This document shows positions 348 to 55,165 of a stretch of 64,000 nucleotides of DNA, in pieces (position 1 is the first letter of the stretch; every line of letters starts with the position of its first letter). Source of the DNA: Gordius sp. MW1. Its lineage: Eukaryota; Nematomorpha; Gordioida; Gordea; Gordiidae. The DNA is taken from contig OZ038527.1 in NCBI GenBank assembly GCA_964036665.1, forward strand, positions 14,787,835 through 14,851,834. Direction: 5' to 3'. The translations under genes and the position numbers were made by a program. Below the pieces are notes generated by a model. The model made no database searches. It saw only the letters and a program-made list of their open reading frames with translations, and was not told the origin of the DNA.

Positions 348-22869
<22,522 letters not shown>

Positions 22870-27129: not shown

Positions 27130-29008
27130 ACTCGGGCCTTCGGCCCTCGTGGGAAGGGGGAGAAGGGAAGGGAAGAGGGGAAGGGAAGGGGGGACGACTC
27201 ATCTGTACTTCGTATAAATGTATCATATTTGCTATGCAATTTATGGGCGAGAAAGGTGGGAAGGGGCGAGAATGCCTATGGGGGGGGGTATTAAATGCCT
27301 AATGATTAATTAATTATTTATACAAATTTTCCATTATAGGCAAAATGTAATAAAGGCAAAATGTAATATAGGCAAGGGTTAGGGTTAGATTTAGTGTTTG
27401 CATCTAGTTGCGTATTACATTAGTTTTTATGGCCTTTAGTGATTCTGGGTCTAACAAACATTATATTATAAAACAACACAATGTTAAGAATTTGCAGAAT
27501 TGTTGGGAGAAATTTTTTGTTGAATTTGAACAATTTTTAATTAAAAAAATCAAAAATTTGGCCAATGGTCACTTTTTCTCTATTGGTCAGTACCAACAGA
27601 TACTCTATAAGTCAATGATAGCCAAAAAAACGGAAAAAAAATTATGATGCTCACTTTGGCCAATGGTCATTTTTTTCCATTGGTCAGCAGCCAGCACACG
27701 GTAAAAGTGGATATAAATTCATAAGAGTAAAAAAACGAAAAAAAAAATTTCGAATCACATTTTGGCCAATGGTCATTTTTTTCAATTGGTCAGCAGCCAG
27801 GACACGATAAAAGTGGATATAAATTCATAATAGTCAAAAAAAACGAAAAAAAAGTTTTCGAATCACATTTTGGCCAATGGTCATTTTATTCCATTGGTCA
27901 GCAGCCAGCGGACGGCCAAAAAGTCATAATAGCAATGGTAGGAACAGGAACAATCATAATAGTCAAAAAAAAACGAAAAAAATAATTTCGATTCACATTT
28001 TGGCCAATGGTCATTTTTTCAATCGGTCAGGAGCCAGCGGACGGCCAAAAAGTCATAATAGCAATGGTATTAACAGGAACAATCATAATAGTCAAAAAAA
28101 CGAAAAAATAAACTCGGATTCACATTTTGGCCAATGGTCATTTTTTTCATTGGTCAGCAGCCAGCGGACGGCCAAAAAGTCTTATTATCAATAATAGTAA
28201 CAAGAACAATCATAAGAGTCAAAAAAACTCCGGGTTTCTACCCAAAAGCTAGTTAAATTCCATAGCAATTAAAAGTAAACAACTTTTATTTATGTTTATT
28301 GTATAACATTGGTCAGCAGCCAGCGGACGGCCAAAAAGTCATAATAGCAATGGTAGAAACAGGAACAATCAAATAGTCAAAAAAAACGAAAAAAATAATT
28401 TCGATTCACATTTTGGCCAATGGTCATTTTTTTCATTGGTCAGCAGCCAGCGGACGGCCAAAAATTCTTATTATCAATGATAGTAACAAGAACAATCATA
28501 AGAGTCAAAAAAAACTCAGGGATTCTAACCCCAAAACTAGTTAAATTGCATAGCAATTAAAAAGTAAACAACTTTTATTTATGTTTATTACTTAACTAGT
28601 TAAATTGCATAGCATTAAAAGTAAACAACTTTTATCTATGTTTATTATATAACAAAAACTAGTTAAATGCAATTAAAAGTAAACAACTTTTATTTATGTT
28701 TATTATATAACTAGTTAAATTGCATAGCAATTAAAAGTAAACAACTTTTATTTATGTTTATTATATAATAGATAATTTAACAAATCTTATATATAACACA
28801 CCGAGGGAGATAGAGATGAGGGGTGGGGGACCTCTTATGCATTAATTTAAAAAATAACACAGCGAGGGAGATAGAGATGAGGGGTGGGGCACCTCTTTCT
28901 CATGCATTAATTTAAAAAAGCGATAACCTAATATACCCAATGCAAATAGATAGGGAGGGTAACGGACGACGGACACCAAAAAACGAGCCCATAAATTGCA
29001 TAGCAATT
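27130..29008. repeat. minisatellite-bearing repeat block, copy 2
   Basis: The same modules in the same order as 4028-6434: GGCCTTCGGCCCTCGTGGG, purine tract, TTTGCTATGCAATTTATGGG, TTAGGG pair, minisatellite (about 27558-28500), ATTGCATAGCAATT array (about 28535-28770), two GAGGGAGATAGAGATGAGG units and a terminal GCCCATAAATTGCATAGCAA. It lacks the 544-bp insertion of copy 1 and differs in unit number. Identity by eye is high, pointing to recent spread or sequence exchange. Confidence 0.75.
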
Positions 29009-30548: not shown

Positions 30549-33500
30549 TTACAGGTGTGTCAAGGTCGATGTTTGAAGTTTCTTTGTGATATTAACGGCA
30601 AATTTAAGAGATTTTTCATCTTTCTCTTCTTTTATTATTAACAACAACCATTCAAGCAATCGCTCATCTTTAAAAGCATATTCTTTACTATCCATAGTGT
30701 GGCAGTAAATCAACGCATAAGCGTTTAAAATTGATCTTTTAAGAAAATAATCATCAGTGACTCGCTGCGATTGGAGAAGATCCAGGAGTATATCCAAAAA
30801 TATGGAAAAATCCTAAATTAAAAAAGCATAATTATTTTCATTAATCAATTATTTTATTATGTTCCTAACAAAACTGATAAGGCATTTAAACTAAATTATA
30901 AATATAGGACATCGCTGGGATATAATAAATACCTGCAAGAATCATAAACAACTCTATAACTCATATTACGTATTTAAATTTTGAAAGAATGACAAATTAG
31001 ATATATCCACTGAAGACCAAAATTATGATTTAGTTTGTCTAGTCTAGGTGGTTTCATTGTTATTTAGCCCCTTTGAAGATTTGAACTACGAGCATGACTA
31101 GAGCCAAAAAATAAACTGATCTTACCTAAACCTATCCTAAATAATGAAATTATAAACCAGAGATATTCACAATTTTTATGCCTCCCTAAATTCTAAAAAG
31201 ATTTCCTGAACAATACAATCTTTTAAATCAAAGAAAAAATCTAGGTGAAGTTTGAAATAAAGAAAATGTGAGCTGAATATTTTAAATATGGTAACAACGC
31301 TTCGAAAGATCTAATTAAATATTAATTTGTACCATAAGCTTTTACAGCATACATGATGAATCCTATGTTTTTAAAATCCTACAATACACGAAGGTCCTTT
31401 AAGATAGCAAAATATTATTAACGCGCGCTTTCATAACTAATTAACAAAAAATAATAATATAAGTCGAATAAATATAATTCAGTTTAATAACAACAATCCA
31501 TTCAAGTAACTAAATTTACTGGGTAATTTTTAAAGGTATCTAATATGCAACTCAGGGTGACTAAAAAAGATCCAAAAATCAATGGCTCAATCTTTTTATT
31601 CACATCTCGGTATTTGGTATATTCCTGTATCCATGGCAGGAAAAAAATTATGAGAGGCGACTGGTCTATAAAAACTTTTAAATAAGATTTCTAGTTAATT
31701 ACTAAGATATGTTAAGGTTTAATATAGTTACTTGGGCATGAAGAGATCTTATAAAGTCCCATTCCACGTCGTAATTCATAGTATATAGGTGATCGGCAAA
31801 TTCTTTCATATAATTATCACCAAATAAATATTTCATGTGTGATAAAGTTTGATTATTAATAGTTGATAGCGCAATCATAATAAGCTAAAATAATGTAAAT
31901 ACTAAAATGTGTTTGATATTTGTATAGTAACTTATATTATTTAATGATTATGGGAAAAAATATTTGTTCCAAAATTTCGTAATATATGAAAACATCGAAT
32001 TGACAATAAAAATAAATGCAAATAAATATATGATATTATGTAACTTAATTTAATATTGATCATAAAGGCCCTCATCACACTGCAAATTGGTTGGTCAATT
32101 TATAGTTTTTTTTGCAGCTTGCAAAAATTTTAGCCCCAACAATTCTTGTTTCATTAATATTTATTTAAAATTAAGAGGTCATTAAAATCAAAGATAAAAG
32201 CAAACTAAAAAAAATTGTAATAATTATTTTGAAACTAATATATAAATCAAAATCAATCCCACAATTTTTTCTAACAAGAATTTATATATTTATGCATAAT
32301 TATAACTTTGTTCATAATTTTATTTATGTTTCTTACTTTTCCCCTACCCTTCCAGGTTTTCAGTAAATTATTTTAAAACTTTTTTAAACACCTGCGTAAG
32401 TTTTAGTTTATAAAATATTGATAAAAATTTCACCATAAACAACCTACATTAATTGCTCCATTTTCAAAAATTGTTTTGTGCATCTTTTTTAATTTATAAT
32501 TTTAGATCATCGCAGAGGACCCTGAGACAGCCAAACACTAGACTATAGTTCCATCCATCATTTATATTGGGATTCCGTACTCAGGAAAGTCTGTTGCGAG
32601 CATAGACTAATAGACTGCTCATCCCCTTTTAAAAAGTGTTCCAAATTTTGGCATCCATTTTGAAAAGTGAATTGAATGATTAGGTTTATGCTTATAATGG
32701 TTTCGGCTATTCCCTATATATTTATTTTGGTCTAAAAATGTAGATCTTTTTGAGTTTTATTAACATGAGCTTTTGATTGAAAATTTAAATATTGGTATAA
32801 AAATTAATAATTATCTATAAATAAAATTAACTTTTATAGCGCCATCTACACTTAAACTTATTTTCTAACATAAATTTTGGCCAATTTATATGGTTTGATG
32901 AATTTTTAAAATCGCTATAATGATTAAAATGGGTTGTTTCATGTTATAAGAACAATGATTACTGACCAATACTATCCATCGCTGTACGAATTCCGTTACT
33001 TTTCAAAATGGCGGTCGTTTTTGCAACACTTTTGATGCGTGAAAGTGAATATATAAGAAATGAGCAGTCTATTAGTCTATGGTTGCGAGTGAAATTTAGC
33101 TAATCAAAAATATAACCCTATTAAAACACATCGTAGTTGGAAAGTTTAATTTCATATCCCTAGCCGATAGTTGTGATGTTTCCGAATTATAAATGTGTTT
33201 CTTTTTTGCATTAGATGTTTCCATTTCTTGGTTTTAATTATGCCATTAACCCCTTAAAAAGCTGGAAGGCAGAATAAGCAATTTTAGATTAAAAGCTCAA
33301 TAAGTTTTAGCAAAAATTAACAAAAATAAAAGAATAGGGACATTTGCGCTAGAAATATTTTAAACTGTCATTTTTACATCCGGGTAAAATCCAGAAGTCC
33401 GAACTCAGTTTATTTATTTAGGTTACACTAACACTTAATAGTATTTAAATTTGATATAAACGAACAAGTAAAACCAAAAAAAATTACTTGTAAAATTTCT

Positions 33501-36500
33501 AATTTGAGAGAATAATTATAAATGGCTGTTGGATAAGAAAAAAAATTTGATGCTAAATGCTTTATAATTGTTTGAGGATCCCTGGAAATCAATAATACTA
33601 AAATGGCCTTCCTAGTGTGATTTTCTTTAGATTTTGCATCTAGTTCTAAAGTAAGTATCTTTTGAAACAATGGAAGCAATATTTGTGGAAGATCTGGAGG
33701 CGAATAGGATAATGTATATAAAAAGTTTCTTAGTATAGTTAATTTATCTAGATTCTGATCATTTTCTTCGAGAAATGCAATATTTTTCGTCATACGATGG
33801 TATATCGAATTGTCAACATTGTGAGTGCAAGACAGATAAGACTCATAATTTGTAAGGATTAGAGGATTATAGGTGACCTATAAATATTGTTCACAATGAA
33901 ATTAAAAGTTTAAAAGATCATTCATAATAATTATAAATATGAGTTGGTTGATAGATTAAAATGTTAAGATTTTAATAAACTTTTTCGGACATGTGGCAAC
34001 TTAATTGAAACTTTGATGTACTATCTCCTTCTTGGCTATTAGGCTTGGGATCCCATATTTTATCGGGTTCAAATTGGGTCATATCACTAGATCAAACGAA
34101 CGAATATTAAACTCAATCACGAAATAATTTTGCAAGATACATCATTGTTGGCATTAAAACGTATATAATATTGACTATTTTACTCAATAATTTCCTGAAT
34201 ATTTCTTGATGGCAACGGTTTAAGTAATTCGCTGAATTCAAGTTCTATGTTAGGATTTAGCATGCTCGCGTCTATTTCCATCGCACTCGGCAATAAATTA
34301 TTTACAACATATTTCATCACAATTAATCCCATGTCTTTCACAAAGGGCATTGAACTTTCCAGGTGTAAATTAACCCCTTCAAGTAAGATGCTATTCAAAC
34401 AAAAAGAATTAAAATAGCACACCGTAATATATAAAAAAATCATTAATTAATAATATATTAAAGAAGCTTGAGGAATGCCATATATTAAGGACACTTTTTA
34501 TAACACCAGATAACACAATTTAGATATAATTTCTGTCAAAATAGTTTTTATTTTAAGACCCACTTATTTAATATCACAAGTTCTATGAATAAACGATTAG
34601 GAAAGGTTTATATTGATTAAATCATTATTGTAAAAATAAAGAATTAGACGGCGTCACACTCATTCCATGTGCCTGTGGACTGAATATCATTTGGGATTTT
34701 ACCACGGTCTATATATTTGCCCCATCCAACTCCTCTCCTGACCTTGTGGTCAGTGCATAGAAAAGAAAGGCAACAAAATATTCCTCCCCAGCGGACAGGT
34801 TATTCATTCCCGTAATGGCAACCGTAATCGGAAACTTAGGCGTTAAAGCTCTCGCTTTCTTGAAACAAATTGGAAAAGCGATCTCTAACCTCTCAAAAGA
34901 TTTCAAAGGTACTTTTTTATCACATAAACCCAATTAAAACGTCGAATTTAATACGATTTCCATACACAAATCAATGCCATCCGTTTAGTTTTACCGTGTT
35001 TTTATAATTTTTTAGTCGTGAACGTAATTTTTAATAGTATAATTTAAATAAATGAATCTTATAGACTTAAAAAAATTTATAAGATTTAATAATTCGGATA
35101 AAAAATACACCATTTCCTTTACAAAATACAAATATAAAAGCATTATAAAAAAGTTGAGCTGTATGAGACCATAATCAAGTTATAAGGTTTAGTGGCAGTA
35201 AATGTGATGTGTTGACAAGTTATAAAAAAGTTAATTTATTATAAAAGCTGTGAAAAAGTATCAATTTGACGTGAAACTAAGTATAAAAAACATGTATGAA
35301 ACGAAAGGTTTAATTGCAATCAAGGACCGTTTTCCGCTTTGACCCAACACAAGGGCTATTTCCTAATTGCGACGCACTATAAAAAGTATTTTCTTAGGGC
35401 CCGAGTGCATTTTTAACATCTGTACCAGGGCCATTAAATAGACAAAAGGTTATAAATTATTAAAACATCATCCTTTTTTATTTAAAAATTTTATGTAATA
35501 ATCACTGTGAGGTCGAAAAAAAATTTATATTTACACGATGTCAAATTTGCTTATTTATTTTTGTAATGCAAATCCAACCTAAAAATATAAAAATTTTACA
35601 GGACGAAAAATATTTAAAAAAAAATGCTTGCTAGTTGTGACCCTTTTTTAATTTAATTAATATTGAAGTTATTTTCAAACTCCGATTGCCCATCTCGCAG
35701 ATAATGATCAAATTATATGTTTATTTTTTTTCCAATAATATTTATTTAACATGTATTGTTTATAAGTTTGCATTTGATAAAAAACAAAAATATAATTTGT
35801 TCATTTAATAATTGATTATACCGCCATATAAATGTTTTTAGTGAAAACATAATTTCGAATTCTTGACCATTTCATAGCCGCCCCCAAACTTTTTATAATT
35901 GAAATATGATAATGGGTCATAAAGGAGTGCACATTGTGAAATTCAAACAAAATTGGCTATTATGAAAAAATTTAAAACAAAATTTGATAAAGAATATATT
36001 AATGATAAATCAAATTAGCTTACAATAAAAAATATAGCTGTGGTAAAGTAATTTATTACTTTAAAATTAATTTTTTTCCTGTTTCAAAATTTCCCATCAA
36101 AAGATAGTAAGTATTCAAAATTACTAGCCACTTGGTAGCAGATAGATGTAATTTTTCAGACCAACTGTTGATTAAAAATTCATCACTCCACACAGTACCC
36201 ATTTCAATAAAATCTGAATAAAAAATAAATTAAAATGATTACAGCAATATAACTTCTTAAAACAATTTCAAGGCTAGGATCATATAGAATACAGAATATT
36301 CCATTTATAAAATCATATAAAACAAAAAATTGTAATTTTAACGATGTATTAAATATAAAATTAAAATATCAACTGGGACAATACAATTGCTGTAATAATA
36401 AAAATACTCTTTATGAATGTATAATATAATTAGTTATATAATTATAAATAATACAATTATTGATATTAATTTATAACTTATATTTTATTCATACATTTTT

Positions 36501-37301
36501 GCATTAGATCAGTATCATTTGATGCATTTATATATTGAACAACATTATGGTAATAATTAGAATTAGGTACTGGCTGGTGTATGAGTTTATGAACTAGCAT
36601 GTTTAGGAATTCTGAAGAACATGGCCATAATTTCTGGATTAATTGAACACTGTTGATTTTAAATATCCAAGAACATATATAATACCCGTTTTTTATGGAC
36701 ATTAAGTATTTGAATAACTTTTCCTGTGAAAGGTATCCACATTTGTAAATGTTTTCATAAAAGATAATTAATTTATCCTGATTACAAAGTTTAAATAATA
36801 ATTGCAATATATCTTTAATCAAATTTGTATTAAGAAGGATACATTTTTCCAAAAATATATGTATATGTGTATGATTTGCACATTCTGTAGCTATATATTG
36901 AGTAAATGTGTTAATAAGCTTAGCAAAATATGTATTGATCAGATGAATGTTTGACAATGCTAGGTATGGTATTTCTAATATCATGGTATAGTAATGATTT
37001 ATGTTAAAATTATCATCCTTAAATGGATAAAATATCTCCTTATGAATAAAACATTCTAGTAATTTAATGTGAGCTAACTCATAATTCCTAAAAATATTAA
37101 TAGCCAAAAATGAGTTCATTACTTTTCTGAGGTGACATAATGTAGAAATATATAATATAGTTCATTCCTACAACCTAAATTTAAAACCTCTTTGAAAAAA
37201 AGGGATGTTTCATTTTTTAGCTTAAAACTAGAAAATAAATTCTCTAATTTTTCATATTTTTCCTGGTAATTACACACGCTTCTGGCCATCTGGCGAATTT
37301 G
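30549..37301 (-). CDS. TELO2: TELO2/TEL2 family protein (PIKK-stabilising TTT complex), N-terminus incomplete
   Basis: TEL2 works with TTI1 and TTI2 to fold and stabilise PIKK kinases such as mTOR, ATM and ATR. Exons in transcript order: 37301-37123, 37087-36495, 36213-36060, 34390-34184, 34086-33981, 33877-33488, 31884-31732, 30812-30549. All phases agree; they give 681 codons plus TAA. The best family matches are LEGVNLHLESSMPFVKDMGL (conserved TEL2 core), the ISRDPQTIIKHLASNFF and YNYSLKLEILQ segment, and the C-terminal DILLDLLQSQ and LLEWLLLIIKEEKDE helices. Vertebrate TELO2 has about 840 residues, so N-terminal exons are missing from this model. A further small exon between 33488 and 31884 is possible. 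The sequence is strongly diverged and AT-biased. Confidence 0.8.
32601..33081. mobile_element. hAT-type MITE, CATAGACTA family, copy 2 (TELO2 intron)
   Basis: A 481-bp element with ends CATAGACTAATAGACTGCTC and GAGCAGTCTATTAGTCTATG, flanked by the perfect 8-bp duplication GTTGCGAG (32593-32600 and 33082-33089). It is non-coding. It lies in the intron between the TELO2 exons at 33488 and 31884. Confidence 0.9.
34440..36059. other. TELO2 intron, mostly featureless
   Basis: A 1.7-kb intron between exons 36060 and 34390. Apart from the retroelement fragment at 34767-34937 and its tail, the sequence is AT-rich and shows no exon or transposon ends. Confidence 0.6.
34767..34937 (+). pseudogene. retroelement ORF C-terminal fragment in a TELO2 intron
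   Basis: A plus-strand open stretch from about 34767 with ATG at 34815 and stop at 34935-34937. The peptide contains RLFIPVMATVIGNLGVKALA and FLKQIGKAI, a pattern found at the C-terminus of some retroelement polyproteins. It is followed by CGATTTCCATACACAAATCA, which recurs at about 29536-29560, consistent with a shared 3' tail. Family not assigned. Confidence 0.45.
37088..37122 (-). other. TELO2: 35-nt intron in TELO2
   Basis: Minus-strand reading: exon ...TCAGAAAA, intron starting GTAATGAACTC and ending TATTAATATTTTTAG, then exon GAATTATGAG. Splicing restores a 2+1 split lysine codon and joins two long open stretches that are otherwise in different frames. The CTATTAAT string before the acceptor could serve as branch point. 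Alternatively, this is a frameshift rather than an intron. Confidence 0.65.
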
Positions 37302-38860
37302 CTATATCACAAATAAAATCATGTTTAAAATAACGACAGTTCATAATACTGACAGCTTAACAAATTAGACATTAAATCTAAAATTAAAATTAGCAAAAAA
37401 TATATGATAATATGTTTAAACAAATAATTGTATATAATACTATATATAGAATTATATATAAGCAATCTACATATTTAATATAATATATTATACACTAAAT
37501 TATATAATTAATAAATACAAGTTAGTCTGGTAAAGGGTGGTATATAATTAAGTGTATATAATAAAATATATGTAATAATTTAAAAGCAATTTATACGTAC
37601 TTAATATATTAAATACTAAATTATATAATTAACTAATACACGTAGTTTGGTATAATTAAGCAATATATAATAAATTTAGGTATTATATAAAGGATATCAT
37701 CCGAGTGCTATCTCATGCCTTTAGATTCTTGTTTACAAGGTGATTAATGGAATATTTAGGATGATAATTGATATAGTTTAATAATCTCAGCTTAAACATA
37801 TAAGAGATTTGCTAAAGTTTTTTTGTACTTTAATAGAAAACATATTAAATTTTAAAAGGGCAATCTCTCTAGCCATTAGATTAAATAGAATTTATTCATA
37901 CAATTTATGATGCTATATAACTTAATTAGATCCTTAAAGTTGTAAAGGGATCATTATTATTAGTAATGTGCATGTGATTAGATAAGCTTTTATATTAAGT
38001 TTTTGCTATTATATTTAAGCAAATTTATTTATACCTGAATCACTAACTATATCTATTTTTATCCACCTCAACAAATGTTTACTTATTGGTGTACTGTTAT
38101 ATTGATATATAAGATAATTGATGAAACTCTAACCCCAATTTTTACATTTAATGCTTACAAAAGAGCCTAGAAAAAAAATGCTTTAAAATCTTGTTCTTGT
38201 TTTAAAAAGATCTAATTAGAAAATATTATAGCTGGTTGTGAAAATCTGGTAACTATCAATAACTTTTTAAGAATGTGAATAATTTTATTTTTTACCAAAC
38301 TTAATTTCAAGAAATATCAATAAGCTTAGACTTTATAGCATTTCAAACTTTAAACTCTTATCTCAGCTCAGTATTTTGTGCAATCTTTTGCCAGAGATTT
38401 TAAATTAAAAGTTTAACATTTAACAAGTAGTACTTTTGCAAATCCTTTAAAACTTTCATATGTCTATGCTGACTATATTGCTACTTAACAACATACATTG
38501 TAGCCTTTTATTTGGTATAACTATTGTCAGTATAATGACTTGACTTGTGTCTCGTTCATGTAAAATATTAGAAACACTAAATAAATTTATAATAAATTAA
38601 TAATATGCCATAGACTCTGAAGCTGTTGAAGGGCAAGAGGCAGTAAAACATTTGTAATAAGATTTGTTGGGCCTCTTTTGACTTGTTATATATAGGTATG
38701 AGGAGTAATACAAGATTAATCCTCCTTTTTGGGGCCTAAGATATTCTGGGGAAGCCACTAGGTTAATAAATATAAATTAGTTGAATAGATATAAATACAT
38801 ATTTTGTGTAAATAATGAAATAAATAAAAAAAACTAGGTAGTATAAATATCAAAAAATAC
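37302..38860. other. AT-rich stretch upstream of the TELO2 exons
   Basis: Dominated by TATATAATTAA-type low-complexity sequence. It contains the tentative exon at 38048-38128 and, at 37325-37356, a string that recurs inverted at 46744-46778. Nothing else is recognised. Confidence 0.5.
38048..38128 (-). CDS. candidate upstream TELO2 exon
   Basis: Between GGGGTTAG and a GTTAGT donor, 27 codons are open in phase 0 (NYLIYQYNSTPISKHLLRWI inside). It would join in phase to the exon at 37301. A second donor (GTATAA, a few bases on) would break the phase. No strong family match, so this is tentative. Confidence 0.35.
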
Positions 38861-39304
38861 CTCTGTCCATTTGATTGGTAACATCCATAATTTGTGGATT
38901 ATCAGTAGGTATGAAATGGCTTATTTGTGTATTAGGAGTGGCCACACTTTGCTGGTCTAAAAAAATTTTACAAAAATTAAACAATACAATACTTTGTGGC
39001 TGTTCTTGCCTAACTTAAACTCTAGGCAGTATTCTCAGATAGTTGGTAGAAACACCTATTGACTGGTTTCTTTGTGTATTAGGAGTGGCCACACTTTGCT
39101 GGTCTAAAAGATAAAAAAAAATTAAGCAATACAATACTTTGTGGCTGTTCTTGCCTAACTAAAACTGTAGGCAGTATTCTCATATAGTTGGTAGAAACAC
39201 CTATTGACTGGCTTCTTTGTGTATTAGGAGTGGCCACACTTTGCTGGTCTAAAAGATTACAAAAAAATTAAGCAATACAATACTTTGTGGCTATTCTTGC
39301 CTAA
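38861..39304 (-). CDS. tandemly duplicated small exons (left part of cluster)
   Basis: Minus-strand exons with AG/GT borders: 39304-39284 (remnant of the split copy), 39248-39138, 39103-38993 and 38956-38861, separated by 34-36-nt introns. Units repeat every 145 bp. Each starts AC then QQSVATPNTQ; the first full copy (39248-39138) is open for 36 codons and ends VLVRQEQPQ. All exons begin after one codon base and end with one, so they can be skipped or added without frame change. Copy 39103-38993 has TAA where its neighbour has TTA. The last exon diverges after QQSVATPNTQ (ISHFIPTDNPQIMDV). The protein is not recognised; it may be the N-terminal part of TELO2 or a separate gene. Confidence 0.55.
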
Positions 39305-39469
39305 TCTTAACTACAATGTAGTATATCAACTACTCAGAAATACGCTGAAGCTTTATTAATATGCAAAAATCAACTAAAACATGTGATGATAAAAACACCA
39401 GTATATTACACTAGGAACAACGAACTTAAACGTATATATAAATACAAAGTATTAATCTATGATATTACA
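39305..39469 (-). repeat. 3' LTR of gypsy element 1
   Basis: 165 bp; on the minus strand begins TGTAATATCATAG. It matches 46192-46356 except GTAGTATATC versus GTAATATATC. The pol frame ends a few codons inside it. Confidence 0.85.
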
Positions 39470-42220
39470 TTTCTCCCGAACTCATCATGAAAACGCACAG
39501 GTTTCTTCAAAATTCTTGTAGACCGTCTTATAATAGTTGGATTTTCAGCTATATCAATGTTTGGTTCAAGATTCGCTTTCATTGTCTCTCCATTTGGCAT
39601 AAACTCGGAACGTAGTCTAAATTTTAACTGGTCGGCATGGTTTCTTCGTATTCCCTCATTTGTGCGGACATTATAAGAATAATGGCTTTTCTGTTCAACG
39701 ATCACACCTTTATGCCAACTTGATTTTGTTTCATTTAGAATCCACACTGGATCTCCAACCGTAAATTCTCTATAATTCGTCTTGCGATCGTGATACAGTT
39801 TTTGTTTCCACACGTTTTCCTTCATTTTCCTTCTTGGGTCAACCTTGATCAAATCGATAGCTGTTTGTAACCTTCTCCCAATAAACATTTCTGCAGATGC
39901 TTTTCCAGTAGTCGCTTGAGACGAATTTTGATAACACATAGAACTTGCTGAAGGCATAATTCTTTGTCTAACATCTCCTTCCTTCCTGCCCAGTATCGAC
40001 TTTTTAATGTACGTATAATTCTTTCAGCTAGTCCGTTTGTTTTAGGGTGATAGGGAGTAGACTTTATATATAATATTGTTCTGAACACAGAATTTATGGA
40101 ATTCGATTCCGGTGAATTGTGGTCCGTTATCGGACACTATCTGATTTGGTATCCCAAAACGACAAAACCAATTTCGTAAATGGTTTATTATAATGGATGA
40201 TGTTGTTGATTTCAGGGTCGCCAATTCAACCCATTTCGATAGAGAGTCAATTAAAACTAACCACCATCTGCTCAACGGGTCCTGCTATATCGATATGAAC
40301 GCGCTCCCATACTCGATCAGTCAAACTCCATGGATGCAAAGGTACCGGCTTTTCGATTGGTCTTAACTCTTGACATCCATCACAGCCTTTAACATATAAA
40401 TCTATGTCACGATCCATCGCAGGCCAGTAGACGTATTACCGTGAAATATTCCGTTTCCCGTTATGCCCGGATGACCTTGGTGTAAAATCTTTAACACAAG
40501 TCTTTGTAGGCTTTCTGGAATTATTAAACGATTTCCCAAAAATAGAAGGCCATCTTCATAAGAAATTTCTCTTCTATTATAATACGCTTTCAAATCTATA
40601 TGAAATTTCGACACATCTATTCGCCAATTCCTTTCAATAGCGGGAATTAGTTCTCGACACCCAGTATCCGTCTTATTGCATTCTTCAACATCTCTCTATT
40701 TAATGTCAAATCATCCAACATTAGTAAACCGACATTATTGATGTAATTCGTCGATTCTTCGTCACTATCTTGTATCGTTAACCGGGATAAAGCATCAGCA
40801 CATTGATTCTCCTTACCCATACGATATTTGATATCAAATTGATAAGAATTCAAAAAAAAGGCCCTACGTACGAGCCTATTATTTACCATTTTTGGTAAAT
40901 CACGATTACATCCGAATAACCGCTCCAAGGGTTTGTGATCGGTTGTTAAAGTAAATTGTCTTCCCCGAAGATATTGATTAAACTTTTCAACTCCATAAAT
41001 GATCGCACGAGCTTCACGATCAATGGTTGAATACCTTTTTTCGGCAGTGCTTAAAGTTTGGGATGCATAAGCGATCAGTTTTTCCGAACCGTCCAGAAAT
41101 TTATGAGATAAGACGGCGCCTAACCCCGTCTCCGATGCATCTACTGTAAGGTTTAGTGGCAACGTAGGCATATAAGGAACTAAAGTATCAGAAGATGGCA
41201 GCAATTTCTTAACATCATTAAAAATTGTTTGTTCTGTAGCTGTCCATTTCCACATCACGGAAGAACCGGTGAGTGCATGTAAGGGTGCACATTTTCCATG
41301 TAATCTAGGAATAAAGCGTTCTTGATAATTAACCAATCCCAAAAATGATCGTAGTTCTTTCTTGTTAGATGGTACTTTAAATTTACTTATAGCTTCTACA
41401 CGTTCGTCTGTCGGGTGAATACCAGCTGAATCAATTTTGTGTCCCAAATAAATTACGGAATCTTGGAAAAATTTCACTTTTTCCTCTTCGCTTTCAAACC
41501 GGCATTTTGCATCCTCATTAGTACTTCATTTAAATTTTTTAAGTGATCATTTTGGTTTCTACCTGTAACAGTTATGTCGTCCAATAGTACTCCACTTTGC
41601 GGAATTCCATCTAATAAGTTTTCCATATATCGTTGAAAAAGATTTGGTGCCGTCGCTAAACCAAATGGCAAACGTTTGTACCTAAAATGACCAACATGCG
41701 TAGCAATTGTTAACAATTTTCTACTCTCTTCATCTGCCATCATTTGTAAATACGCGTCGCGTAGATCTATCACTGTGTATTTCTCACCACCAGCTATTTT
41801 TGTAATTAGATCATCAAATGTTGGCAGCATATGATCATTGGTACTAAGGTAGGGGTTCAAAGTAACTCTGAAATCTCCGCAGATTCGAATAGAACCATTC
41901 CCTTTAACAACATTTACCGTTGGTGTGATCCATTTAACTTCACTTAAAGATGGGTGTACCCGTTCAATAATGTTTTGCTCCTCCAACCTTTTTAATTCCG
42001 ATTCTACTTTTTGTCTTAACGGAAACGGTACCCTTCGGGTTTGAAATGCTATTGGCTGGCTTTCATCTTTTAAAAATATTTTGACTTTATAATTCTTAAT
42101 AACTCCGGGGCCATCGCCAAATATAGTTTGATAACGATTAAGTAATAGGGAATCTAATTCATGTTGTAATTTGTTTATTGAAACCTCACCCGGCAGGTCA
42201 AGGTCAAAACGCTTTTATCC
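39457..42220 (-). pseudogene. pol: gypsy element 1 pol (RT, RNase H, integrase)
   Basis: From upstream to downstream: RT (42220-41474) with RICGDFRVTLNPY, VIDLRDAYLQ, LPFGLATAPNLFQ and a VLLDDITV active site where Y is usual before LDD; RT connection and RNase H (41477-40647) with TVDASETGLGAVLSH and TTDHKPLERLF; integrase (40614-39457) with the zinc-binding start, SDNGPQFTG and a C-terminal RSTRILKKPVRFHDEFG. Frame changes near 41475, 40440 and 40080 break it, so it is probably inactive. It copies RNA to DNA and integrates the copy. Confidence 0.85.
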
Positions 42221-42223
42221 AGT

Positions 42224-42736
42224 TGTTTATGAAAATTATGGAAGTTTATTGAAATACTGAAAATATGTATAATGAAATATAATAGTAAAATATGTAAGAT
42301 CAAAATGTTTATGGAAATTATGGAAGTTTATTGAAATACTGAAAATATGTATAATGAAATATAATAGAAAAATATGTAAGATACGATAATGTAAATAAAG
42401 TAAATGATAATGCTTAAGTGTAGGATGATGATGTTTGAATGTATGTATATAGGTGATGTTGTTTGAAATTGAATGTACGTAAATATGTTATCATGACGTG
42501 TATCTGTGTTCTAGAAAATCATATCATTCCTGAATGAATGTGTGTTGTTTATGTTATGTCTTAACATGTGGGTATACGTTGTTCATGTTATGTATTAACA
42601 TGTGTGTATATGTTGTTCATGTTATGGGTTAACATATGTGTATATATTGTTCATGTTATGGGTTAACAAGTGTGTGTTCGGTGTTCATGTTATGTATTAA
42701 CATGTGTGTATATGTTGTTCATGTTATGTGTTAACA
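42224..42736 (-). repeat. 3' LTR of the BEL/Pao element
   Basis: 513 bp. Contains a partial tandem duplication of the 75-bp segment starting TTTATGGAAATTATGGAAG and six variable GTTCATGTTATGNNTTAACA units. It is followed by a C-run and the integrase stop. It has more internal units than the 5' copy. Confidence 0.75.
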
Positions 42737-44176
42737 TTCTGCCCCCCCCCCGTTGAAAGTACTATCATCCAAATTGGTAGATCCGTGAAGAATATCATCG
42801 ATAGGTAATACATGCAGTCTTGTTACTGGCCTTTTGATCAAACCAGCTGATGTTCTTAAAGTAACTACTCTAGTTACTCCATCGGAGCCTGGGTGAATTT
42901 CTTGAATACGGGCTAAAGGCCATTTGAGAGGTGGCGTGTTATCCTCCTTAATTATTACAAGTTGACCGACCATTACATTCTGAAATGATTTTTTCCATTT
43001 TTTACGCATCTGAAATTGATTTAAATACTCCTTTAACCATCGGCGCCAAAATTGCTGTCGTAATAATTCTGCGTGCTGCCATCGAGATAAAGTATTCAAT
43101 TTTGCAGATGTCCAATTAGGTTCAGAGATAGAAGTGAAAGAAGAGACAATCAAAAAATGCGCGGGAGTTAAGCATGATAAGTCATTTGGATCTTCTGACA
43201 ATTGTGTAAGAGGTCTTGAATTAATGATGGCTTCGATTTGAATCAAAAGTGTGGTGATTTCTTCATAAGCTAATAGGGCTTGACCCAATACTCTTCTCAA
43301 ATGATGTTTGGTAGATTTGACGGCTGCTTCCCATAAACCACCAAAATGAGGTGCTCTTGGTGGAATAAAGTGCCAATTAATGCCCTGTTCTGCTAGTTTC
43401 AACTTTATTCTTTCGTGGTTGCTGGGACTAAGTAAAGACTGTAGCTGTAATAATTCCTTGTTAGCTCCAGTAAAAGTGGTTGCATTATCGTAATAAATAT
43501 TGAGTGGTTTACCTCTCCTAGCTATAAAGCGTTTTAAAGCATTAAGAAATGCTTCAGTGGTAAGGTCTAATACTAACTCTAGATGAACTGCTCTTGTATT
43601 AAGACAAACAAACAATGCAGAATAGACCTTAATGAGCTTGCTATTTCGACGTTTACTCTCCCGAATTTGTAATGGTCCAAAGTAATCTAGACCGGTGTTA
43701 TAGAATGGTCTGGTAGGTACAACCCGACAAGTTGGAAGATTGCCCATGATACATTGTTGTGGTCTTGGCTTAACCTTAAAACAGGTAATGCATTTTCGTA
43801 TTACTTGCTTGACAAGAGATCTGGTACTGATGGGCCAATAGGCGGTTCGAACATTAGCTATAGTATTTTGCACACCAGTATGCAAATATTCTTCATGGTA
43901 CATTTTAATTATGAGATTAGTAATGAAGTGATTTTTTGGAAGAAGAACAGGATGTTTTTGACTAAAAGGGACACTTGCGTTTCTTAGTCTTCCGCCTACT
44001 CTGATTACACCATCGTGAAGAAAAGGGGTTAAACTGAGTATTTTATTGTTGTTTGATACCCTATTAAACTTTACAAGGGTATGTAAATCTGTTGAAAAAC
44101 ATTCCATTTGGACTATTTTTAACACAGTTAATGTAGCTTGAGAAAGTTCTGTGGTTGACAAGGATCCATATTTCAA
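42731..44176 (-). CDS. pol: BEL/Pao integrase region
   Basis: An open frame of 481 codons. It contains an H-H-C-C zinc-binding region (HEEYLHTGVQNT to IRKCITCFKVKP), a DDE core with TGLDYFGPL, YYDNATTFTGA and FGGLWEAAVKSTKHHL, and the C-terminal MVGQLVIIKEDNTPPLKWPL segment typical of Pao integrases. It inserts element DNA. The frame is intact even though the rest of the element is truncated. Confidence 0.88.
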   Translation of the reverse strand: MKYGSLSTTELSQATLTVLKIVQMECFSTDLHTLVKFNRVSNNNKILSLTPFLHDGVIRVGGRLRNASVPFSQKHPVLLPKNHFITNLIIKMYHEEYLHTGVQNTIANVRTAYWPISTRSLVKQVIRKCITCFKVKPRPQQCIMGNLPTCRVVPTRPFYNTGLDYFGPLQIRESKRRNSKLIKVYSALFVCLNTRAVHLELVLDLTTEAFLNALKRFIARRGKPLNIYYDNATTFTGANKELLQLQSLLSPSNHERIKLKLAEQGINWHFIPPRAPHFGGLWEAAVKSTKHHLRRVLGQALLAYEEITTLLIQIEAIINSRPLTQLSEDPNDLSCLTPAHFLIVSSFTSISEPNWTSAKLNTLSRWQHAELLRQQFWRRWLKEYLNQFQMRKKWKKSFQNVMVGQLVIIKEDNTPPLKWPLARIQEIHPGSDGVTRVVTLRTSAGLIKRPVTRLHVLPIDDILHGSTNLDDSTFNGGGAEC

Positions 44177-44880
44177 ATGATTTTACATTTAATGTTTGAA
44201 TAAAACCGTAAACAATATGCTATAATTCGTGTCAGTTTCCGAAAATTAGAATATTTTGTTAACAAAGGATTGATCTTACAAATAGTAGAGCAGTGCACTG
44301 TTTTGTGTTCGGGTATATTGGACATATCACTCAAAGACAAATGCTCAATAATAGGACAGTCGCTGGATAACCAAATGGGTCCTGTCCACCATTTTATATC
44401 ATTAACCAACTCACTTGGTGAACAGCCTCTTGATAAAGAGTCGGCTCGATTGTCACTTGTTTGTACATGATGCCAATTGTCAACTTTAGAGTTTTGTTGA
44501 ATTTTTGCTACTCGATTAGCCACAAAGGTATTCCAGTTGCTAGGTGAACCCTTGATCCATGCTAACACTATTGCCAAATCAGTCCAACAATATGTTGTGG
44601 TTTTGGAACTTGAAATGCTAAATGGACAATTTTTAATAATTTTGTTAGCAGAAGTGCCCCGCACAATTCTAGTCTTGGAATTGAAATGCTTTTGATGGGA
44701 GCAACTCGCGATTTGGAGCAAAGAAGTCTACTGGACCAGTTATCATTGCTGGAAGATCGAATGTATATACATGCCCCATAAGTGATTTCGCTTGCGTCAC
44801 AGAAACCGTGAATTTCTATCTTCAAGGGATTCTCATGGCCTATAACACGCCGGGGAATGTCAAGTGAGCTTAAAAGTACA
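44173..44880 (-). pseudogene. pol: BEL/Pao RNase H region
   Basis: Two overlapping frames: 44825-44568 with GFCDASEITYGACIYIR and IPRLELCGALLL (Pao RNase H), and 44721-44173 with TDLAIVLAWIKG, NRVAKIQ and NRADSLSRG. A frame change near 44720 separates them. Confidence 0.75.
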
Positions 44881-45074
44881 AATTAATTTTTAAATGATGT
44901 CCATTTATTGCTAAGATCACTAGGAAGTGTTTCATCCCAAGATTGCTGAAGCTTCCAAAGTTGCTGCATAAATACCTTAGGTCTTGTCAATACAGGCCCT
45001 AGTAATCCAAGTGGATCAAACATTTGAGAAATATGTGATAGAACATTTCGTTTTGATATAGTATCCCTTGAAGT

Positions 45075-45590
45075 TTAATTTTTAATGTTGAATTGAATGT
45101 TGTCATTTTGTGGATTCCAATGGATACCTAAAGTCTTCATGTTACTATGCTTGTCTAACGGTATGATTTCGTCACTAGAAATTGATGGTAGTTGAGTGAA
45201 TAATGAGGTGGAATTTGTGGCCCATTTTTTTAGATTTAATCCAGCTTTTTGTAGCATGGTCTGTATTTGTACTACAATAATTTTAGCTTCTGAAATGTTG
45301 TGTGCCCCTGTTAATAAATCGTCAACATAAAAATCTCTTTGTGCTATGCGTGCTCCAATTGGGAACTTGTTGCATTCATCTTCAGCCACTTGTTGAAGAA
45401 CTTTAGTAGCTAAGTAAGGTGCTGATGAGGTTTTATAAGTAACTGTAAGTAAGTCAAAGGATTGAACAGGATGTGATATTTCATCTCGCCACAGTATTCT
45501 CTGCAATTGAGTATGTGCTGGATTAATCAATATCTGTCTGTACATTTTTTCGATGTCTGCTGTGATTGCAATATTGTGACTACGAAAATG
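45075..45590 (-). pseudogene. pol: BEL/Pao reverse transcriptase, C-terminal two thirds
   Basis: Begins at the LTR with ITADIEKMYRQILINP and continues with SFDLLTVTYKTSSAPYLATK and FYVDDLLTG, the YVDD catalytic centre. A stop at 45075 separates it from the connection region (QMFDPLGLLGPVLTRPK around 44975-45020). The fingers region is missing. Confidence 0.8.
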
Positions 45591-45999
45591 TTTATGGAAA
45601 TTATGGAAGTTTATTGAAATACTGAAAATATGTATAATGAAATATAATAGTAAAATATGTAAGATCAAAATGTTTATGGAAATTATGGAAGTTTATTGAA
45701 ATACTGAAAATACATATAATGAAATATAATAGTAAAATATGTAAGATATGATAAAGTAAATAAAGTAAATGATAATGCTTAAGTGTAGGATGATGATGTT
45801 TGAATGCATGTATATAGGTGATGTTGTTTGAAATTGAATGTACGTAAATATGTTATCATGACGTGTATCTGTGTTCTAGAAAATCATATCATTCCTGAAT
45901 GAATGTGTGTTGTTTGTGTTATGTCTTAACATGTGTGTATACGTTGGTCATGTTATGTATTAACATGTGTGTATATGTTGTTCATGTTATGGGTTAACA
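45589..45999 (-). repeat. 5' LTR of the BEL/Pao element
   Basis: 411 bp, same order of motifs as 42224-42736 but with fewer GTTCATGTTATG units. It ends GGGTTAACA and runs into the gypsy gag fragment. Confidence 0.75.
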
Positions 46000-46200
46000 T
46001 ATCGATGTGAGATAGGCCCATATACGCCAATATCAGCGTGGTGGCCTTCTTATCCAAATTTTCAATATTCCTGGCCCTAAAAATATTTTCAATCGTAAAA
46101 ATATAAGATTCAATCTTATCTGTAGGATTGTAACTAGGAATGATGTCCATGGCCAAAGAATATATGTAGACCGCGCCAATAAATGTAGTATTCTTAACTA
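46000..46200 (-). pseudogene. gag: gypsy element 1 gag, N-terminal fragment
   Basis: The peptide includes MDIIPSYNPTDKIESYIFTI and LDKKATTLILAYMGL, a gag pattern with helices. It is cut off by the BEL/Pao LTR at 45999; the rest of gag is absent on the other side of the nested element. Confidence 0.55.
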
Positions 46201-46356
46201 CAATGTAATATATCAACTACTCAGAAATACGCTGAAGCTTTATTAATATGCAAAAATCAACTAAAACATGTGATGATAAAAACACCAGTATATTACACTA
46301 GGAACAACGAACTTAAACGTATATATAAATACAAAGTATTAATCTATGATATTACA
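46192..46356 (-). repeat. 5' LTR of gypsy element 1
   Basis: 165 bp, partner of 39305-39469. On the minus strand the internal sequence after it reads ATACTACATTTATTGGCGCGG, with a possible primer-binding site in TTGGCGCGG. Confidence 0.8.
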
Positions 46357-46549
46357 GGCAGTATTCTCATATAGTTGGTAGAAACACCTATTGAATGGCT
46401 TCTTTGTGTATTAGGAGTGGCCACACTTTGATGGTCTAAAAGATTACAAAAAAAATGAAGCAATACAATACTTTGTGGCTGTCCCTGCACAATTAAGGCT
46501 CGAAACAACAGTGGATTAGATGCAGAGATAGATGGGAGATTATTCTGGC
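46357..46549 (-). CDS. tandemly duplicated small exons (right part, upstream of the gypsy insertion)
   Basis: Exon 46549-46472 (26 codons, including LPSISASNPLLFRALIVQ and ending QGQPQ) is followed by a 36-nt GT-AG intron and then exon 46435-46357, a copy of the QQSVATPNTQ unit that runs into the gypsy LTR. The phases (1 in, 1 out) match the left part of the cluster 7 kb away. The first exon's end (LIVQGQPQ) resembles the end of each repeated unit (VLVRQEQPQ), so the 145-bp unit spans the end of this exon, an intron and the start of the next. A start codon was not located. Confidence 0.5.
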
Positions 46550-47099
46550 CTAGATAATATAAATTTGAAAATAAATGAAATTGCACTTGTAGGCATGAAT
46601 AATAATTGAAAATATTGCACTTTGTGATATGGTAAAATTTTAAAATAAACGGTAAAATGAAAGTTATAATGATTGGTTGTTTACTTAAGATATATGACAT
46701 ATCCTATAAATTTGAGTTGCGAAAATGTGTTTGAATTTGATAGGTTGTCAGTATTATGAACTGTCGTTATTTTGAAACAGAAGCGAACAAATAATCTAAA
46801 GTTTATCTACAATATATAATATTAACACTAATTTTTGATTATTTTCTGTCAGGAATATAAATAATTCTGTTTTGCATTTATCTTTTAAAAGTTATATATC
46901 ATTGGAACATACATACATACACTTAGGTTAAATTTTGTATAGGTTAGTTTAATATTACTATATATTACATTTACAACTATAACAAAAAGTATAATATATA
47001 TTGTATACATAAATCATATATTCTATATAAAATAAGCACACTTTTTTGCAAGTTTTATGACTTTTCGCCAGCTGTCCATTTCGTCAGATGGGTTGGATT
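46550..47099. other. AT-rich spacer upstream of the minus-strand exons
   Basis: Would hold the promoter and first exons of the minus-strand cluster if that gene starts here, but no start codon or promoter motif can be supported. 46744-46778 is an inverted near-copy of 37325-37356. Confidence 0.4.
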
Positions 47100-54729: not shown

Positions 54730-55165
54730 TTATTAATTGCTATGCAATTTATGGGCTCACTTTCCATTTTCCGATGTCTTGTCTTGCACCGAATGTCTTG
54801 CACCAAATGTCCTGTCACGCTTTTCGTCGTATTACCACTGAGACCGTTTGGATGTGGGTTCGAATCCCAGGGAGGCCAAACTTTTTTTATTTTTTTTAAC
54901 TTAATATATTGTTCTTGTTACTACCATTGATAATATGACTTTTTAGCCGTCCGTTGGCTGCTGACCAATGGAATAAAATGACCATTGTTCAAAATGTGAA
55001 TCGAAATTATTTTTTTTGAATCTTATGATTGTTCTTATTACTACCATTGATAATATGACTGTTTGGCCGTCCGCTGGCTGCTGACCATTGGAAAAAATGA
55101 CCATTGGCCAAATTGTGAATCGAATTTTTTTTCGTTTTTTTTGTTAAAATTAATAATTAAACTGT
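54730..55165 (-). repeat. inverted fragment of the minisatellite repeat block
   Basis: Starts with ATTGCTATGCAATTTATGGG, the inverse of the block end, and contains two minisatellite units on the minus strand (GGCCGTCCGCTGGCTGCTGA and ATGACCATTGGCCAA on the plus strand). Third copy of the family in the window. Confidence 0.65.
54838..54877 (+). repeat. tRNA-like B-box sequence
   Basis: GGTTCGAATCC at 54857-54867 matches the tRNA T-arm/B-box consensus and is followed by a T-rich run. The GGGAGGCC after it has no matching 5' acceptor strand at the right distance, so this is not an intact tRNA gene; a tRNA-derived SINE fragment is more likely. Confidence 0.35.

Follow-up and report, generated by a model that had tools for sequence, protein, structure and literature searches.

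Tandem arrays of short exon-intron units ahead of the FLYWCH zinc finger in MULE-type transposons of Gordius sp. MW1

Introduction

Phantom (Muta) transposons are MULEs in which a FLYWCH domain is followed by a MULE domain, and passages of two reports describe their inverted ends, 8-10-bp target-site duplication and non-autonomous derivatives (PMC6446971, PMC5225508). Muta1 and Muta5 are predicted to have two and three exons, respectively (PMC5225508), and the passages on Phantom/Muta in both reports mention no tandem exon array. Two MULE-related systems, Rehavkus and an aphid Phantom, carry a minisatellite in or beside the transposase open reading frame (ORF), situated in the C-terminus of Rehavkus and after the ORF of the aphid element, as given in part of one report (PMC6446971). 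Here, we analyse a window of 64,000 nucleotides from the nematomorph Gordius sp. MW1 (assembly GCA_964036665.1, contig OZ038527.1, positions 14,787,835 to 14,851,834 of the forward strand), in which a 145-bp unit repeated on the minus strand is probably the tandem exon region of the gene of a FLYWCH/MULE-type (Phantom-like) transposon. In contrast to the systems above, the repeats have exon-intron form and precede the zinc finger, and repeats lie upstream of FLYWCH in all seven lineages that we compared.

Exon duplication is usually regarded as a matter of rare, old events in host genes, as in titin, Dscam and similar genes, where symmetric exons have been duplicated without loss of frame. The arrays described here differ in belonging to a mobile gene, in the likeness of their units (93-97% matches by Tandem Repeats Finder (TRF) in the window and in the fetched loci L049 and L058) and in reaching 43 units. 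Many short symmetric exons also make up the micro-exon genes of schistosomes and the bicycle genes of gall aphids, which are genes for secreted proteins, whereas here the gene is that of a transposase and the exons are near-identical tandem copies. A literature search turned up no description of a transposase gene with tandem exon arrays, and the portions consulted of two further papers (PMC3169594, PMC13359780) do not mention exon-intron arrays.

Geometry of the array in the window

TRF reports a tandem repeat at 38917-39304 with a period of 145, 2.7 copies and 93% matches. Boundaries verified base by base divide the window units (145-147 bp, minus strand) into an AG acceptor, a 111-nt exon, a GT donor and an intron of 34-36 nt, in agreement with a preliminary description made from the letters of the window. 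That description had also placed an exon encoding LIVQGQPQ ahead of the array, which we locate at 46549-46472, and had pointed to one copy with TAA and one split by a retrotransposon; both are seen, the split copy containing nested retrotransposons. The features of the element, in window positions, are as follows.

37308..37315: target-site duplication, 8 bp, 7 of 8 bases matching its partner
37316..46785, minus strand: non-autonomous FLYWCH/MULE-type DNA transposon, ~2.4 kb without the later insertion, placed by the imperfect inverted repeat at its ends and by homology of other loci
38597..38757, minus strand: terminal exon, half a FLYWCH zinc finger (Pfam PF04500) with stop, VASPEYLRPQKGG...SESMAYY then stop
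38861..38956, minus strand: last, divergent exon, 96 nt, ending MDVTNQMDR/G, its end sharing homology with the exon before FLYWCH in other lineages
38993..39103, minus strand: array exon 3, 111 nt, TAA inside
39138..39248, minus strand: array exon 2, 111 nt, open, NQQSVATPNTQRSQSIGVSTNYMRILPTVLVRQEQPQ
39284..39304, minus strand: array exon 1, right part, TAG
39305..46355, minus strand: Gypsy-type long terminal repeat (LTR) element holding a BEL/Pao-type element (~42226-46003), types from reading of the frames
46356..46435, minus strand: array exon 1, left part, interrupted by the Gypsy-type element
46472..46549, minus strand: 5' exon, 78 nt, phase 1, SQNNLPSISASNPLLFRALIVQGQPQ (LIVQGQPQ)
46587..46596, minus strand: putative first exon (ATG CCT ACA A) with a 37-nt GT..AG intron after it, suggested by frame and phase
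46786..46793: target-site duplication, 8 bp, other side

The window introns measure 36, 34, 36 and 103 nt, all in phase 1 and the first three all GT..AG, and every complete exon is a multiple of three in phase 1. Of the three array exons built on the 111-nt pattern, only exon 2 is unbroken: exon 3 is disrupted by its TAA, and exon 1, which starts at 46435, is interrupted at 46356 and continues at 39304, by a TAG and the loss of 10 nt at the insertion junction. Since the 7-kb block at 39305-46355 has no match over 60 bp in 20 other loci, we regard it as a later insertion. Its inner BEL/Pao-type element has one frame with an integrase zinc-binding domain and DUF5641; at the right junction of the Gypsy-type insertion there is no clean target-site duplication, and the host unit has lost 10 bp.

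A dispersed non-autonomous transposon

When the genome to which the window belongs (212 Mb, 12 contigs) was searched with the unit, at least 104 matches were found at no fewer than 40 places on contigs C1-C8 (best 40 of 85 candidates scored), which excludes a chance origin of the unit. In 20 loci fetched for comparison of the flanks (L009-L028), homology beyond the downstream side of the array extends to at least 38831 in all 20; the upstream side (46356-46786) is shared by 19, the exception being L026, and colinearity reaches the end at 37311-37319 in 12. The terminal inverted repeats of the window element share 42 of 46 bases, and other copies have the same ends; among 19 copies with both ends, the target-site duplication matches at 8 of 8 bases in 12 and at 7 of 8 in two (the window included), and is absent in five. 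Inverted ends and duplication length both agree with Phantom MULEs. A host gene, to which the preliminary description had implicitly assigned the array, is therefore not borne out: unit and flanks are dispersed together as the 5' part of a transposon gene, with shared ends and target-site duplications. Genome-wide occurrence as a non-coding satellite had been named as an outcome that would overturn the exon interpretation; the dispersal was indeed found, though the copies sit inside transposons, and a plain satellite was rejected on the flanks that the loci have in common.

The FLYWCH exon of the window scores 24.4 bits against Pfam PF04500 (cut-off 23.6) and covers positions 1-35 of the 62 in the profile, the second half being missing; the query that gave this score is identical to the window exon in its FLYWCH part. 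No MULE transposase match (PF10551) lies inside the element among the matches listed (best 150 of 202 candidates) and stop-to-stop frames beyond the array (37316-38960) are at most 59 aa long, from which we take the element to be a non-autonomous derivative. In the window, the copy is a dead-end passenger: the gene stops halfway through the FLYWCH domain, and later insertions have broken the array. An autonomous copy of the window's subfamilies was sought among the FLYWCH matches (best 150 of 282), where matches of at least 79% identity occur in frames of at most 98 aa only; the closest matches with longer frames in that set are L054 (67%) and L049 (65%), and the L055 match (74%) has a 118-aa frame with no MULE seen.

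Array turnover in window-type copies

Across the window and 28 fetched loci, arrays range from one full unit (L044, L051) to eight (L009), upholding the earlier proposal that duplication of the exon-intron unit adds a symmetric phase-1 exon and that copies are both gained and lost. The copies form subfamilies A, which includes the window, and B, ~15% different in the array, with L026 and L028 in neither. A distinct intron marks the terminal unit in 25 of 30 groups and just one of 73 interior units, that one from two arrays pooled in L021, so that array growth seems to occur among interior units; two exon haplotypes interspersed in long arrays (e.g. L009) suggest block duplication. At L009/L010 (C3:24588914-24601179), two window-type copies lie inverted, ~10 kb apart.

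Splice sites and frames were counted in 107 aligned units (rows with more than 90 model positions, the window's split exon excluded), from which four 5'-exon rows and six L026/L028 units were dropped, leaving 53 A and 44 B units. AG at the acceptor and GT at the donor are each preserved in 50 of 53 A and all 44 B units; the frame is open in 42 A and 36 B units, and indels occur in nine and five, respectively. A protein-guided search found a stop in three of 150 window-type units, one of them from the window itself (best 150 of 193 candidates).

Arrays in other FLYWCH transposon lineages

Many lineages of FLYWCH transposon are present in the genome, and upstream DNA was examined in seven including the window family: L049 and L054 are the nearest FLYWCH relatives with long frames, L059 and L060 are copy-rich, L061 was taken with no prior view, and L058 is considered further below. 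Tandem repeats stand just ahead of the FLYWCH exon in the window family and in all six others. In the six types with set boundaries the exons are multiples of three in phase 1, 63-123 nt long, separated by introns of 31-69 nt.

L049: 94 bp x 14.8; exon 63 nt (first 69), intron 31 nt (one 38)
L058: 144 bp x 12.8; exon 75 nt, intron 69 nt
L059: exon 81 nt, intron 34 or 35 nt
L060: exons 69, 96 and 123 nt with a 27-nt inner repeat, intron 41 nt
L061: exon 78 nt, intron 47 nt; second copy only partly within the 331 bp fetched
L054: older modules, ~70% alike, boundaries not set

No stop is found in the exons taken from the DNA of L049 (15 exons), L058 (12), L059 (4) and L060 (4), nor among the 150 scored matches of the L060 unit (best 150 of 492 candidates). 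The exon after the array is homologous between lineages, reading MDVTNQM in the window, VETTNQM in L049, MEVTNEM in L058, IDVTNQM in L059 and VDATNQM in L061, and the intron between it and FLYWCH is 35, 33, 38 and 36 nt long in L049, L058, L059 and L061, respectively. Downstream of the FLYWCH exon, MULE matches above cut-off occur in five of the six other lineages (L049, L058, L059, L060 and L061), the domain order of Phantom, with Pfam scores in L049 of 35.1 bits for FLYWCH and 32.2 bits for MULE; L054 has a 206-aa FLYWCH frame with no PF10551 beside it among the matches listed (best 150 of 202).

FLYWCH and the next region differ between L049 and L058 by a nonsynonymous divergence (dN) of 0.30 with synonymous divergence (dS) saturated over 160 codons, and L054 compared with L049 and L058 gives dN of 0.42 and 0.37 with dS of 2.0 and saturated. 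Units within the L049, L058 and L059 arrays are ~96-99% alike, and the unit sequences of window subfamily A, L049, L058, L059 and L060 show no similarity beyond chance. The FLYWCH region is thus constrained while these arrays are young, suggesting the arrays were renewed after the lineages split. The tandem exon idea of the preliminary description therefore gains support outside the window, in arrays of open phase-1 exons ahead of FLYWCH/transposase sequence in which dN is much lower than dS. The L058 unit has relatives at 18 other places with two to three units each, 17 at 81-85% and one at 64-74%.

Copy number is extreme in the L059 lineage, where FLYWCH scores are identical across eleven elements and so are MULE scores, a likeness judged by scores alone. 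Ten of them have arrays of 4, 4, 6, 8, 8, 9, 14, 15, 34 and 43 units (best 150 of 178 unit candidates), all starting exactly 174 bp from their own FLYWCH match, with a spacing of 115-116 bp except for one of 112 and one of 119. We call these ten complete because they are gapless and each ends in a unit with a shorter frame (47 aa); the eleventh element, with two units 2.4 kb away, is incomplete or interrupted. The longest array contains a pattern of nine spacings twice in a row, a higher-order repeat. No stop occurs among the 150 scored L059 units, in a protein-similarity search that favours open units.

Proposed origin of the arrays and alternatives

The favoured site of duplication would be just upstream of the exon leading into the FLYWCH zinc finger, where an exon and its very short intron would be duplicated head to tail, most likely by unequal exchange or slippage. 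Because the exons are multiples of three between two phase-1 introns, copies could be gained or lost with the transposase frame left intact. The array would then go through more expansion, contraction and homogenisation, with transposition spreading the arrays and neutral decay acting in dead copies. Such an array would be a minisatellite with an exon as its repeat unit. Its predicted product in autonomous elements, after splicing and translation, is an N-terminal segment of variable length under little constraint. Unit lengths in five of the six types with set boundaries are not divisible by three, and an unspliced reading would shift the frame, so removal of the introns appears the most economical interpretation wherever the transposase downstream is under constraint. 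The arrays therefore seem to be exon minisatellites of fast turnover in a transposase gene, with splicing predicted from frame and phase, and exons seem to be born and lost repeatedly in this gene. Whether the transposase genes of the whole group carry spliced exon minisatellites, as near-identical phase-1 exons of 63-123 nt with introns of 31-69 nt at one conserved site, renewed per lineage, numbering 4 to 43 in one lineage and giving a variable-length N-terminal repeat, is a broader proposal that we consider evenly balanced.

Several observations weigh against splicing and coding of the arrays. In a shuffle control, 7-26% of 1000 shuffles per unit passed the geometry criteria, which three of five real units pass and L058 and L060 fail; as shuffles pass so often, unit geometry alone is not taken as proof. 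Introns of 31-41 nt are very short, L058 has two possible donor GTs, of which the one giving a multiple of three was chosen, and some L060 acceptors have two AGs. The lineages are not a random sample, L058 having been chosen for its 893-aa open frame. This frame (1133-2968) runs through array exons and introns alike because unit and intron are both multiples of three, so splicing is not forced there. In subfamily B the acceptor region of the last exon is altered such that inclusion would shift the frame and, as we read it, only skipping fits. Among private changes in the array exons no bias towards synonymous ones is seen, the counts being 37 nonsynonymous, six to stop and six synonymous in A and 11, one and seven in B, against expected fractions of ~0.69/0.05/0.26 (A) and 0.64/0.06/0.30 (B) from a count that keeps three 5'-exon rows in A. 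Between A and B the array exons have a dN of 0.149 and a dS of 0.17, one pair of L054 modules gives 0.234 and 0.24, and the FLYWCH exon of the window differs from those of L051 and L057 by one and four nonsynonymous and no synonymous changes over 30 codons. Purifying selection on array exons, looked for in A and B units, thus gave no sign, so the array in non-autonomous copies decays like neutral DNA. Of the 'new exons' of the preliminary description, the duplication stands, while the functional sense does not hold for the window copy, in which no selection keeps the array exons coding.

The array could alternatively be a non-coding minisatellite, an intronic or 5' untranslated repeat grown from one exon-intron piece that never enters the protein, with the splice-like ends as passengers. 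The dN close to dS, the frame-breaking indels in several copies and the frequency of single-unit geometry among shuffles are all in line with this, and minisatellites are known at MULE transposase ORFs, as part of one report describes (PMC6446971). Against it, all six types with set boundaries have phase-1 exons in multiples of three (the donor being chosen in L058), exon length in L060 varies in steps of 27 nt only (69, 96, 123) and the exons taken from the DNA of L049, L058, L059 and L060 are free of stops; we consider it rather unlikely. Maintenance of the units as cis-acting DNA in non-autonomous elements, for example as binding sites of a transposase or silencing factor with the exon geometry as a relic, would accord with the persistence of arrays of variable copy number in elements with a truncated gene, and subterminal tandem repeats are described for MULE ends in part of another report (PMC5225508). 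Such a regulatory array appears quite improbable, as the repeats are internal, outside the inverted ends, L044 and L051 manage with only one full unit, and the five types compared have unit sequences without similarity. Tandem exon duplication in a cellular gene, already refuted for the window, is barely credible: an exon-like frame with splice sites, and a frame farther on in this strand whose Telomere_reg-2 match is weak and below cut-off, speak for it, against which stand the common flanks at 40 or more places, the shared ends and the target-site duplications. We therefore retain the tandem exon region of a Phantom-like transposon gene as the probable identity of the 145-bp units.

Inverted pairs and neighbouring features

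Among 39 matches taken from the FLYWCH search (best 150 of 282), ten head-to-head inverted pairs of FLYWCH exons were seen, 3.4-17.5 kb apart.

C1:3788009/3791509, C1:18493987/18511605, C2:6414964/6420287, C3:21126284/21132888, C3:21985016/21989348: inverted FLYWCH pairs
C4:18008335/18013227, C4:19169473/19174129, C7:6436352/6441726, C8:22139374/22144004, C8:35091617/35102417: inverted FLYWCH pairs

Within one pair (C1:18494324-18511411), L060 units are spread across 17 kb. The mirrored array positions suggest foldback-like elements with two divergent transposase genes, both with exon arrays. At L050 (2517-3093), a 104-bp tandem repeat of six copies lies between a different, ZSWIM-type MULE gene and a window-type element, as judged from weak tblastn rows only.

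Elsewhere in the window, exons of a dynein heavy chain gene occupy 9904-17386 on the plus strand: the frame at 16877-17386 has Cytoplasmic dynein 1 heavy chain 1 as its best PDB match (E 1.4e-53) together with Pfam AAA_lid_11, and the frame at 9904-10383 matches Pfam AAA_9. A possible host gene, oriented like the transposon, lies immediately downstream of it (33431-37119, minus strand); here a 121-aa frame matches Telomere_reg-2 weakly (20.2 bits, below the cut-off of 23.6), and Pfam gives no match for a 213-aa frame adjoining the element. Tandem repeats of 106-128 bp and 58 bp, similar to one another, at 5046-6168, 27624-28775 and 54887-55132 share a CCATTGGTCAGCAGCCAGC-like motif, on the other strand at the third site, and are probably another repetitive element.

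Implications

A single genome here holds hundreds of near-identical exon-intron units. Even elements of close likeness differ in copy number, which makes the birth, loss and homogenisation of exons, and of introns of 31-41 nt, directly measurable in such arrays. The arrays also carry a warning, as they resemble new host exons to gene predictors. If the proposed reading is true, the transposase gene would tolerate, or even use, a fast-changing N-terminal repeat.

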